A stretch of DNA of 10,160 nucleotides from Bacteroidales bacterium (GTDB lineage Bacteria; Bacteroidota; Bacteroidia; Bacteroidales; UBA12481): contig JAQWAJ010000033.1 of NCBI GenBank assembly GCA_028707745.1, positions 1 to 10,160 of the forward strand, written 5' to 3'. Below, piece by piece: positions 760 through 5,391 of this stretch. The translations under genes were made by a program, and so were the position numbers. Each line of letters begins with the position of its first letter. The stretch's first letter is position 1. The notes beneath the pieces were generated by a model. That model was not told the DNA's origin, ran no database searches, and was given only the letters and a program-made list of their open reading frames with translations.

Positions 760-2174
760 GCCTCGTACAGCATATCAAACCCATACAGCAATGACAATGT
801 CTCAACCTCCCGCTTGAAGTCGCCAAAGAAGGTCACCCGGTGCCAGCCCCACTGATCCCATTCATTCAGGAGTTTATAAATATCCCCCTTGACCTCAACG
901 GCCAGTTTGCTGCGGCAGGCCATATCTTCATCCACGTTTTCAACAGTAACCCCCTGGTGGAAAATAGTCTGTTTTTTATTGTGATCGAACTCGATTGTTG
1001 TGGTCATGGCACCTATCGGCATTAAGGAACGAACAGCAACACCTTTACGATCTTCGGAGTGACTCCGGATTTGGAACGGATTGTAGGGGCCATCCGGGCC
1101 GTAAACTTTTGTTGGGGCCACACAATGGGCATAGATGATCTGATTTTTCGAGGTGTCGATAACCGGATCGGAGATGAATCCCGGCCGGTTAGTCTGATAA
1201 TTCATGATCAGTTTGGTGATCGTGGAGCGCTGATCGGCTTCGCAGGCACCCACAAATCCCTGATCGTCAAGTTCCATAAACCCGATGCACGGATAGGCAC
1301 ATACCATTTTTTCACTATAGATTCCACCCAAACAATTGACAGTAATTGCTTGTGCATGATGATCCTCCATGACACCGGCCATGGCAAGGTACATGGCGGC
1401 AGATTTCCGGATCTCTTCCAGTTTAGGCTCAATCACCCTTCCTGACCTTTTGATCCACTCATCGGCTTTTGCTTCAGCCTCTTTCTTCGATACGGCTTTA
1501 TACCGGTCGTTGATCTCCGCAAACTCGATCCCTTTAACCTGAATGCCATAAGTCTCCTGTAATTTCACATCAGGGTTGCCTCCAACCACCAGCATGGTCG
1601 AATTGGCGATCATTTTCATGGTCACCAGATAACTCAAGGCCTTCACCACATCATTAAAATCCGATGAGGATACCGGGATAACCGGGAGTTTCTTACGGTG
1701 TGCCCAGGAATAGGCCGTCAGAAATTCGCCTGATCCGGCATAGAGATGATCTACCATGATCATAGGCTTACCGCTCTGGGCAAGAGTTTCCGATAGATTA
1801 CCCCATAAGCAGCCGACCAGAAAATAGAGATATCCGTCAACTGCCGGATCTTCATCAACAATCCGCTTTGCCTCTTCGGCGCTCCCGATCATGGTCGACA
1901 TGAATCTGAAATCCACATCCGGGCAGCTGGACAGCAGTTTCTGTTTGTATTCAGAGACCTTCGAATCGAAATCATATCCGATATTCGGCCAGATAGGCCC
2001 TGCAGGATCGGGGTAGGCGAAAATCGTTTTTACAACCGGCTTTACTTTCGGACGGGATAATACCGGCGGCATGTAGTAATTCATCGATGATCCGACCAGC
2101 GGATACAAGGTTAATCCGGCTGTGCATACTGCACAATTACTGAGGAAGTTGCGGCGGGAGAGGTTTGATTTCAT
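756..2174 (-). CDS. Tat-signal protein with L-fucose/L-arabinose isomerase-like fold
   Basis: 472-residue protein that begins with a twin-arginine signal (SRRNFL, residues 6-11) and a hydrophobic stretch to about residue 28, so it is probably exported folded. The body resembles proteins related to L-fucose isomerase. The C-terminal half has an ACEAD motif (Glu312), an SDP Asp (336) about 24 residues later, and AHC (His350), arranged like the Glu-Asp-His metal site of that superfamily. The N-terminal half alternates beta and alpha elements (PVIPVSSSDFND, MLVVGGNPDVK). Full ketose-aldose isomerase activity is not proven: export is unusual for isomerases, so it may be a sugar-binding or repurposed relative. 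The start at 2174 gives the intact Tat motif. It lies downstream of ribD on the same strand, with only an octanucleotide tandem array between them, and overlaps the nitrilase start by four bases. The fold call is reasonable; the substrate is unknown. Confidence 0.72.
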   Translation of the reverse strand: MKSNLSRRNFLSNCAVCTAGLTLYPLVGSSMNYYMPPVLSRPKVKPVVKTIFAYPDPAGPIWPNIGYDFDSKVSEYKQKLLSSCPDVDFRFMSTMIGSAEEAKRIVDEDPAVDGYLYFLVGCLWGNLSETLAQSGKPMIMVDHLYAGSGEFLTAYSWAHRKKLPVIPVSSSDFNDVVKALSYLVTMKMIANSTMLVVGGNPDVKLQETYGIQVKGIEFAEINDRYKAVSKKEAEAKADEWIKRSGRVIEPKLEEIRKSAAMYLAMAGVMEDHHAQAITVNCLGGIYSEKMVCAYPCIGFMELDDQGFVGACEADQRSTITKLIMNYQTNRPGFISDPVIDTSKNQIIYAHCVAPTKVYGPDGPYNPFQIRSHSEDRKGVAVRSLMPIGAMTTTIEFDHNKKQTIFHQGVTVENVDEDMACRSKLAVEVKGDIYKLLNEWDQWGWHRVTFFGDFKREVETLSLLYGFDMLYEA

Positions 2175-2175
2175 A

Positions 2176-2255
2176 GGTTGATGTGTTGATGTGCTGATGT
2201 GCTGATGTGTTGATGTGCTGATGTGTTGATGTGCTGATTGATTGATGTGCTGATG
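2176..2255. repeat. 8-bp tandem repeat, 10 units, abutting a start codon
   Basis: Ten consecutive 8-bp units in exact register, consensus TG(T/C)TGATG on the plus strand. Five of the inner units are identical to one of the two forms without a break; the first (ggttgatg), eighth (tgctgatt) and ninth (gattgatg) differ slightly. The array fills nearly the whole gap between the ribD stop and the isomerase-like gene, ending two bases before its ATG, so it forms the entire immediate leader of that gene. Units of this kind change copy number by slipped-strand mispairing. Here a change would alter leader length but not the reading frame. Confidence 0.9.
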
Positions 2256-3363: not shown

Positions 3364-3393
3364 ACGTTACGCGTCACGCGTGACGCGTAACGT
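3364..3393. repeat. Perfect 30-nt palindrome between divergent ribD and prmC
   Basis: All 15 base pairs match around the centre between 3378 and 3379, with no loop. It is built from four heptamer units (acgttac, gcgtcac, gcgtgac, gcgtaac) and followed by a partial fifth. GTNAC and GC are each self-complementary, so an array of GCGTNAC units is inherently palindromic when the variable bases are symmetric, as here (T, C, G, A). It lies about 22 bp upstream of the ribD -7 box and about 64 bp upstream of the prmC -7 box. It may be an operator, a cruciform-forming repeat, or simply a repeat-family member. Confidence 0.9.
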
Positions 3394-3456
3394 AACGGGA
3401 AACGCTTAGTTAATGCGAGCCGCCTTTCTTTTACATCAAGAGTCGCCGGAAATCGT

Positions 3457-3464: not shown

Positions 3465-3525
3465 TCTGGATTTCCCAACGAAAGCAGGGACCCTGTCCCA
3501 AACCACGTTAGCTGACCAGAGCACC

Positions 3526-4443
3526 ATGAAGTACTCCGCCTTCAATATCTTTCTGAAAAATAAGCTGAACGGCCTATATTCTGACCGGGAAACTGAATCT
3601 GTCAGTAGATTGATACTAGAGCATCTGACCGGGCTGAGCTGGATTCAGGTTCGCTTGAACTGGGAGCTGGATTTCACTCAGGATCAGGAGAAAAGGGCAG
3701 TTGAAATTGTTCAGCGGCTGCAGGATCATGAGCCCATTCAATATGTTTTAGGAGAAACTGAGTTTTACGGTCTTACATTCAAGGTGCGGCCAGGTGTGCT
3801 GATTCCCAGGGGGGAGACAGAAGAACTGGTGGAGTGGGTTATCGAGGCTTCCCGCTTTCGCGGGAATGACAGAGAAGATAAAGTGAGGATGAAAGGGTTG
3901 CGAGTGTTGGATATCGGGTGCGGCAGCGGAGCAATAGCCATCGCACTGGCTAAAAATATGCCTGATGCAGCGGTTTTTGCCGCAGATATATCGGAAGAAG
4001 CATTACAGGTAGCCCGGGAAAATGCAGCTCTTAATAACCAGCACATTACCCTGATCAACTTTGACATCCTCCTCCATCCTAGCACCTGTCATCCCCGCGA
4101 AGGCGGGGATCTCGTCCCAAACAACGAGGGCTACAACTTCGATCTCATCGTTTCCAATCCTCCCTACATTCCGTTCGGCGATAAGATGTCGATGGATCTG
4201 CATGTTGTTGATTATGAGCCAGAAATAGCTCTGTTTGTTCCGGATAACGATCCCTTGCTGTTTTATCGGGCGATTGCCGGATTTGCTGCAGAACACCTGA
4301 ACCCTGGCGGAGAAGTTTTCGTGGAGATTCATGAGCGCCTGGGTGACGAAACGGCAGATGTATTCCGGAAAAGGTTTTCAAATGTCGAACTGCGTAAGGA
4401 TATTCACGGCAAGGACCGTATGATTCGTGCTCATCATGGATAA
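3526..4443 (+). CDS. prmC: PrmC: release factor glutamine methyltransferase, with two inserted loops
   Basis: SAM-dependent N5-glutamine methyltransferase (HemK/PrmC) that modifies the GGQ motif of peptide-chain release factors RF1/RF2. It is 305 residues long; E. coli PrmC has 277. Visible signatures are QYVLGETEFYG (72-82) and LIPRGETEELV (92-102) of the N-terminal helical domain and linker, SAM-binding DIGCGSGAIAIALA (129-142), and the substrate-glutamine motif NPPY (211-214). About 28 extra residues fall in two places, around 108-124 (contains ASRFRGND) and around 185-202 (contains CHPREGGDL). Both are encoded by palindromic DNA elements and lie in loops between Rossmann-fold elements, so the core motifs are intact and the enzyme is probably functional. 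It is the first gene of a plus-strand operon and overlaps recX by 8 bp. The ATG at 3526 has no Shine-Dalgarno sequence, as is normal for Bacteroidota. Confidence 0.95.
   Translation: MKYSAFNIFLKNKLNGLYSDRETESVSRLILEHLTGLSWIQVRLNWELDFTQDQEKRAVEIVQRLQDHEPIQYVLGETEFYGLTFKVRPGVLIPRGETEELVEWVIEASRFRGNDREDKVRMKGLRVLDIGCGSGAIAIALAKNMPDAAVFAADISEEALQVARENAALNNQHITLINFDILLHPSTCHPREGGDLVPNNEGYNFDLIVSNPPYIPFGDKMSMDLHVVDYEPEIALFVPDNDPLLFYRAIAGFAAEHLNPGGEVFVEIHERLGDETADVFRKRFSNVELRKDIHGKDRMIRAHHG
3849..3870 (-). repeat. Palindromic element in prmC, copy 1 (inverted)
   Basis: Arms TTCCCGC (3849-3855) and GCGGGAA (3860-3866) pair perfectly around TTTC, followed by TGAC. Read on the minus strand it is GTCATTCCCGCGAAAGCGGG, the same consensus as copy 2 but in the opposite orientation. 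It is translated in frame as ASRFRGND (108-115), just before the SAM-binding strand. Confidence 0.85.
4088..4128 (+). repeat. Palindromic element in prmC, copy 2
   Basis: The core starts GTCATCCCCGCGAAGGCGGG, with 8-bp arms ATCCCCGC (4091-4098) and GCGGGGAT (4103-4110) around GAAG. A second, weaker hairpin follows (CTCGT 4111-4115 with ACGAG 4124-4128), so the mobile unit may be about 41 bp. It is translated as CHPREGGDL and onwards (188-201), just before the YNFDLIVSNPPY strand. It differs from copy 1 mainly by paired C/T and G/A changes that keep the stem. Confidence 0.85.
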
Positions 4444-5330: not shown

Positions 5331-5335
5331 TAAAT

Positions 5336-5391
5336 ACGTGACGCGTTACTAGTCACGCGTAACTCGTAACTCGTCACGTGTCCCGCGTTAC
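5336..5391. repeat. Heptanucleotide tandem array between convergent genes
   Basis: Eight consecutive 7-bp units in register: acgtgac, gcgttac, tagtcac, gcgtaac, tcgtaac, tcgtcac, gtgtccc, gcgttac; consensus KCGTNAC. It fills the gap between the osmC stop and the stop of the minus-strand lipoprotein. Several units can pair with one another (for example cgtaac with gttacg), so the array could form hairpins and might act in both directions at the transcript ends. There is no T-tract typical of an intrinsic terminator. Confidence 0.85.

Follow-up and report, generated by a model that had tools for sequence, protein, structure and literature searches.

Two loops of PrmC and one loop of AspRS probably serve, in a genus assigned to the Bacteroidales by the names of its nearest homologues, as recurrent acceptor sites for the short repeats of the host genome. 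The repeats found at these loops are REP palindromes, arrays of the heptamer GCTCAAG and, in AspRS, arrays of the GTCACGC type. Judged by their sequence, the two copies in the prmC gene described here are CGTC-type REP palindromes seated in two permissive loops.

Genomic setting and the two palindromes of prmC

The window (the whole stretch of DNA analysed, 10,160 nucleotides) is contig C197 of a MAG, designated G000, which measures 2.35 Mb in 440 contigs and is 67% complete. Based on ORFs and Pfam domains, the gene order around the site is ribD, prmC, recX and a gene for an OsmC-like protein. The prmC product (Table 1) scored 241.6 bits against TIGR03534, above the cut-off of 199.1, and both of its hypervariable loops coincide with or adjoin gaps when aligned to the PrmC of E. 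coli and T. maritima. An Rfam search of the window gave zero matches, and the prmC DNA had no match in a plasmid collection.

Table 1. Features of the prmC region, in positions of the window
Feature	Position	Strand	Description
Degenerate REP-like copy	3473..3507	+	Directly upstream of the prmC start; 77% identity over 35 nt to 4092-4126, overlapping copy 2
prmC, release factor N5-glutamine methyltransferase	3526..4443	+	ORF, 305 aa; PrmC_N and methyltransferase Pfam domains; TIGR03534
Hypervariable loop 1	3832..3909	+	GETEELV to the SAM-binding DIGCGSG motif
REP copy 1, in loop 1	3849..3870	-	7-bp stem, 4-nt hairpin loop, TGTC tag; coding strand with the preceding base gives ASRFRGND
Hypervariable loop 2	4072..4137	+	FDIL to FDLIVSNPPY
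REP copy 2, in loop 2	4084..4131	+	8-bp stem, 4-nt hairpin loop, TGTC tag, tail like that of other genomic copies; peptide TCHPREGGDLVPNNEG

The original prediction of an inverted pair of palindromes kept in frame within prmC was confirmed. Searching the window with the 20-mer pattern GTCATYCCCGCGAARGCGGG, at up to 3 mismatches, returned two matches, at 3851-3870 on the reverse strand (GTCATTCCCGCGAAAGCGGG) and at 4088-4107 on the forward strand (GTCATCCCCGCGAAGGCGGG), against a mean of 0.01 in 200 shuffles, none of which held two; the copies are read as ASRFRGND and CHPREGGDL. Copy 2 has 8 stem pairs and the hairpin loop GAAG, and copy 1 has 7 of 8 pairs and the hairpin loop GAAA. Their folds reach -11.8 kcal/mol at 3845-3876 (copy 1; z -1.96) and -21.4 kcal/mol at 4084-4135 (copy 2; z -2.98). 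The stem differences, described as compensatory, are so at one pair (T-A versus C-G), whereas the A/G difference sits in the hairpin loop. Likewise, the 20 bp given for the element hold for the palindrome, but the elements are in fact longer: copy 2 continues beyond it as other genomic copies do (GATCTCGTCCC...). The prediction had also hung on further copies in the source genome, and these were found, with 43 matches in the MAG at up to 3 mismatches and 0 for the reversed control. Tolerance of the palindrome in frame, as in the Rickettsia palindromic elements (RPE), was borne out in several genes, and five of the six frames are free of stops in each window copy.

The surplus over E. coli PrmC, whose length of 277 residues agrees with 1t43, had been assigned to the palindromes. 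About 8 and 16 residues are indeed REP-derived, which is not the whole surplus. Similar loop lengths in a relative without palindromic DNA, named beforehand as evidence to the contrary, did turn up in part: in G002, of the same genus and with no REP in its loops, 32 residues separate RGETE from DIGCG and 78 separate DIGCG from SNPPY, compared with 34 and 81 in G000. With loops nearly as long in G002, the PrmC surplus is only partly palindrome. What stands of the earlier interpretation is a genome-repeated, in-frame palindrome; it has to be amended in that the loops vary by nature and accept other repeats too.

Several further repeats occur in the window. Arrays of the GTCACGC/GTTACGC type flank prmC-recX-osmC on both sides, at 3366-3394 and 5335-5391; the stretches 3366-3394 and 5335-5363 form 29-nt inverted repeats that are 83% complementary, and a comparable array lies within AspRS of G004 and G005. 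An octanucleotide tandem array, CTGATGTG, adjoins ribD (window 2170-2250). The RibD proteins of the genus (L240-L246) contain a stretch of varying length (RKGVLRQDKEEGDRRSPLHIFDG in the window), and that of G005 has a repeat tail. RibD was dropped as a neighbouring control gene, as it too has a variable stretch, with no clear REP in it.

REP and heptamer families across genomes

A T precedes GTC in both window copies and in all 33 aligned genomic copies, which share an 8-bp stem, a 4-nt loop and a consensus tail of the type GaCCtCGTC. In addition to the 43 REP copies of G000, there are 161 in G003, 53 in G004, 48 in G006 and 223 in G007, and the GCTCAAG heptamer occurs 281 times in G003 and 181 times in G006. 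From these copy numbers across G000, G003, G004 and G006, both REP and heptamer are dispersed repeat families. Within the phylum, 51 of 395 sampled genomes, the own genome counted, matched the 20-mer pattern exactly. One pair of REPs with facing tags occurs in G000, on C85, and G007 has many closely spaced opposed pairs. In a pure GCTCAAG array, the three forward frames are all open and the three reverse frames all closed, so that reverse heptamer arrays in PrmC need unit variants.

RAYT was considered as the driver of the REPs and rejected, since over 15 genomes the presence of Y1_Tnp does not track REP number: G007 has 223 REP copies and one Y1_Tnp gene, G009 has 10 and none, and G013 has none and six. 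The two Y1_Tnp genes of G000 lie on C369 and C261, contigs that hold 0 of the 43 REP copies.

Loop contents of PrmC in relatives

A PrmC search in 60 relatives gave a match at E <=0.001 in 57, some of them weak. Within the genus, PrmC was clear in G002, G003, G004 and G006, and no convincing PrmC was found in three of the seven relatives (weak matches in G001 and G005, none in G007). These three lack a convincing prmC despite a completeness of 92-99%; in the stretches read next to ribD in G001 and G005, prmC was not found and other genes are present. Loops 1 and 2 both contain REPs in G000 and in G004 and both contain heptamers in G006; G003 combines a heptamer array (GCTCAAG) in loop 1 with two REPs in loop 2, and G002 has neither family.

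Among metagenome PrmC homologues, the REP and heptamer families recur at both of these sites, combined in several ways. The homologues were compared as protein sequences; most of the DNA analysed comes from draft MAGs. For the homologues, 8000 candidates were scored, and P0001-P0051 were used, among 120 listed of 6533 proteins. By hand labels, 20 of 46 clade PrmCs carry repeats in both loops, and 19 have neither family at either loop.

The orientation of the repeats is nearly partitioned by loop. Among 47 of the 51 rows that could be parsed (all but P0047-P0050), forward REPs are absent from loop 1 and number 14 at loop 2; the reverse REPs number 10 and 3, two of these three occurring beside a forward copy. 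The heptamers comprise 15 forward at loop 1 and 0 at loop 2, and 0 and 10 reverse. The rows are mutually related, and the peptide signatures behind these counts were picked after the loops had been seen and miss some hand-labelled cases. A third insertion site in PrmC lies ahead of LDIL, where a peptide of the form ETHNYASLRT recurs in P0009, P0014, P0017 and P0018; P0009 has a similar peptide in loop 1 as well.

Repeats within other genes

In G000, 10 of the 43 REP copies were placed within six recognisable genes, namely prmC, transglutaminase-like, xseA and cobW (two copies each), fcl-like and aspS (one each); the other 33 are sorted only in part into genic and intergenic, ORFs having been read without a gene caller. 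The xseA copies lie at the C-terminal end, and those of the cobW-like gene lie between its two domains. The fcl-like protein has an Epimerase domain and falls below the cut-off of the GDP-fucose synthase model. The aspS copy, at 3 mismatches, is perhaps only partly REP. For G000, 14 REP-bearing ORFs were written out and 10 sent to Pfam, and N-terminal copies in PFL-like and periplasmic-binding ORFs were left out of the count of 10.

Sampling of 313 kb of G003 and 280 kb of G007 gave 46 and 73 REP copies, with 12 and 14 ORFs of at least 150 aa, respectively, containing an internal copy. Pfam was run on 10 of the 12 in G003 (prmC and one other omitted) and, in G007, on 8 of the 14 REP-bearing and both heptamer-bearing ORFs. 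In these two genomes, REPs were located between or inside the Pfam domains of FeoA-FeoB, a GltD-like protein, GH92, aspartate-semialdehyde dehydrogenase (Asd) and a PglD-like transferase, and heptamer arrays between or inside those of GH92, GltX and GH123. ORFs with no family or with a one-sided domain only were set aside (2 in G000, 3 in G003 and 5 in G007, of thirty). In the N-terminal cases (topoisomerase, HlyD-like, Omp28, galactokinase and periplasmic-binding), the repeat may lie upstream of the true start.

A loop of AspRS, compared in nine genes over the segment that PDLRF(G)MKI and EY(I)G enclose, behaves in a similar way to the PrmC loops. In G000 it contains a stretch resembling REP, in G002 a longer one without repeats, and in G004 and G005 arrays of the GTGACAC/GTCACGC type running in both directions (G005 has two aspS copies, and the loop content is that of one). 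The loop is without extension in G003, G007, G008, G010 and G024.

Probable acceptor loops and the inverted arrangement

If these loops are recurrent acceptor sites, repeats might be copied into genes by a transposase acting in trans or through template switching in replication. Insertions elsewhere in the gene would be purged, and those in loops would survive, the repeats being stop-free in most frames and the loops tolerant of added residues. Orientation would be filtered by the peptide that each loop tolerates, and arrays could afterwards expand or contract through slippage or recombination. Acceptance at the loops, together with purging elsewhere, would account for the sites, the frames and the orientation per site. 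The term hotspot, as used here, covers survival in loops as well as true insertional preference.

The inverted arrangement might instead arise from, or be preserved by, pairing of one loop with the other, either through a template switch in replication that copies a repeat from one loop into its partner in inverted form or because a long mRNA hairpin is favoured. This is conceivable and, in our opinion, rather doubtful. Where the same family occupies both loops, the copies are inverted, and among the 22 of 31 PrmC genes parsed for duplex formation, the loop 1-loop 2 duplex departs from dinucleotide shuffles in G000 (z -5.9), G006 (z -12.0) and G004 (z -4.3); z is -1.3 in G002. Yet inverted copies of one family give complementarity anyway, and the same site-specific orientation is seen in G003 (z -1.3) and P0014, whose two loops are occupied by unrelated families. 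Moreover, the loops of G000 have no perfect inverted match of 10 nt in common, and the loop 1 of G004 and that of G003 pair better with the loop 2 of another species than with their own (two of five). Over independent pairs, only five in number, the family association between the loops was 2.4 the same way, 0 opposite and 2.6 without difference.

Pairing is also favoured by G006, in which a 21-mer occurs exactly three times genome-wide, always in prmC (once in loop 1 and twice in loop 2). It is part of a 25-mer that loop 1 shares with the reverse complement of loop 2, and has eight one-mismatch copies, two of them on the same contig. In this one genome, the shared 21-mer points to copying on a local scale, for which template switching may be responsible. 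A bolder version would have the PrmC loops swap repeats, one templating the other in inverted form during replication, with the segment between them acting as a self-feeding trap for short genomic repeats, which are kept there as complementary pairs; we hold this to be unlikely, a shade more so than loop pairing at large.

Loop length and recent change

From NPPY to the C-terminus, PrmC hardly varies in length, with 96-97 residues in all 46 clade proteins (sd 0.15). In the 45 of 46 clade proteins that could be parsed, loop 1 ranges from 18 to 67 aa and the distance from DIGCG to NPPY from 67 to 122 aa; the outgroup gave 14-44 and 66-88 aa in 53 parsed loci of 79, drawn from the best 80 of 593 loci, with L083, apparently in the genus, set apart. 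From these outgroup ranges, individual outgroup members are also long-looped. Part of the PrmC loop length is ordinary, as G002 and the 19 clade proteins with neither family illustrate.

Changes among very close relatives also support the reading as acceptor loops. Three proteins (P0023, P0024 and P0030) that are identical at 239 of 239 positions outside the loops have a loop 2 of 17, 17 and 39 aa, and within a strain group of six proteins the DIGCG-to-NPPY distance takes the values 72, 83, 94, 105 and 116, in steps of 11 residues. It is improbable that a single ancestral insertion, since diverged, explains the loop contents. Such a common origin would fit the 20 clade proteins with both loops decorated, and was favoured by the authors of the R. 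japonica genome for their own case (PMC3767692). Nevertheless, palindrome and heptamer array are unrelated, and one replaces the other in proteins that are 95% identical: P0006 and P0007 share 227 of 239 residues outside the loops and have a heptamer array in loop 1 of one and a REP in loop 1 of the other. On a loop-masked tree, moreover, the hand-assigned labels change at least 13 times at loop 1 and at least 9 times at loop 2; the tree is resolved only in part, with stars on 15 of its 41 inner branches and a bootstrap that had yet to settle.

There is equally little to recommend the loop contents as a selected peptide extension useful to the protein, for instance in binding or in regulating release factor modification. 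The site-specific orientation and composition would agree with such a role, but near-identical proteins differ in loop sequence and length, and the 19 hand-labelled proteins with neither repeat do without it. Misjoining of repeats into the prmC of draft MAGs, which the fragmented and incomplete MAG of the window might invite, is very improbable, given that the PrmC matches of G000, G002, G003, G004 and G006 are free of internal stops, that a decorated PrmC (P0015) lies on a 5.38-Mb contig and that P0012 comes from an assembly of 11 contigs, the longest of 179 kb.

Comparison with known repeat systems

The REP element itself is of a known kind and had already been recorded in the phylum: in 2013, Di Nocera et al. 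described CGTC REPs, some of them within genes, and named Bacteroidetes among the hosts (PMC3733652). Neisseria dRS3 and R. conorii RPE-6 both belong to the CGTC-1 family of these REPs, which has an unpaired CGTC (or TGTC/CCTC) tag at one end and a short tail that mostly fits CCA, and which occurs predominantly as head-to-head dimers. The present REPs resemble CGTC-1 in their TGTC/CGTC tag, an 8-bp stem starting with AT, a 4-nt loop and a mostly intergenic, partly intragenic location in Bacteroidetes without a dedicated transposase (PMC3733652). They are multicopy, dispersed and mainly between genes, with the 10 of 43 copies placed in genes. The consensus tail of the window's genome exceeds the tail described (PMC3733652). 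The portion of that paper relied upon here gives a single same-site case, recB of two Xanthomonas. A difference from CGTC-1 is that relatives here hold unrelated heptamer arrays at the same gene positions. REPs mobilised by RAYT (GTAG type) flank a Y1_Tnp gene, and those of G000 do not.

Dispersed arrays with a 7-nt unit are also known as the STRR of cyanobacteria, and the TAACTGA repeats of Beggiatoaceae are reportedly of the same build. The GCTCAAG-type arrays described here also occur in frame within conserved genes.

A further parallel is found in the Rickettsia palindromic elements, which similarly are, at the level of the gene, palindromes within conserved genes that keep the reading frame. 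Different RPE groups (RPE-4/6/7) were reported at the same loci of orthologues in the R. japonica genome in 2013, and its authors considered hotspots or the divergence of one insertion, favouring the second (PMC3767692). There, the groups were regarded as diverged copies of one insertion (PMC3767692); here, the repeats are unrelated in kind, belong to another phylum and differ between very close relatives. In the mostly open-access literature searched, no report was found of unrelated repeats alternating at the same gene loops for PrmC or for Bacteroidota. The Rickettsia paper left the choice between hotspots and one old insertion open (PMC3767692), and since the repeats that alternate in PrmC are unrelated, they speak for hotspots over a diverged insertion. 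With near-identical proteins of unequal loop length, the process could be followed over short times. Non-coding repeats that become protein loops in a conserved translation enzyme illustrate a route to new protein sequence, and our comparison suggests that such repeats settle repeatedly in the same places within a gene, where they are tolerated.
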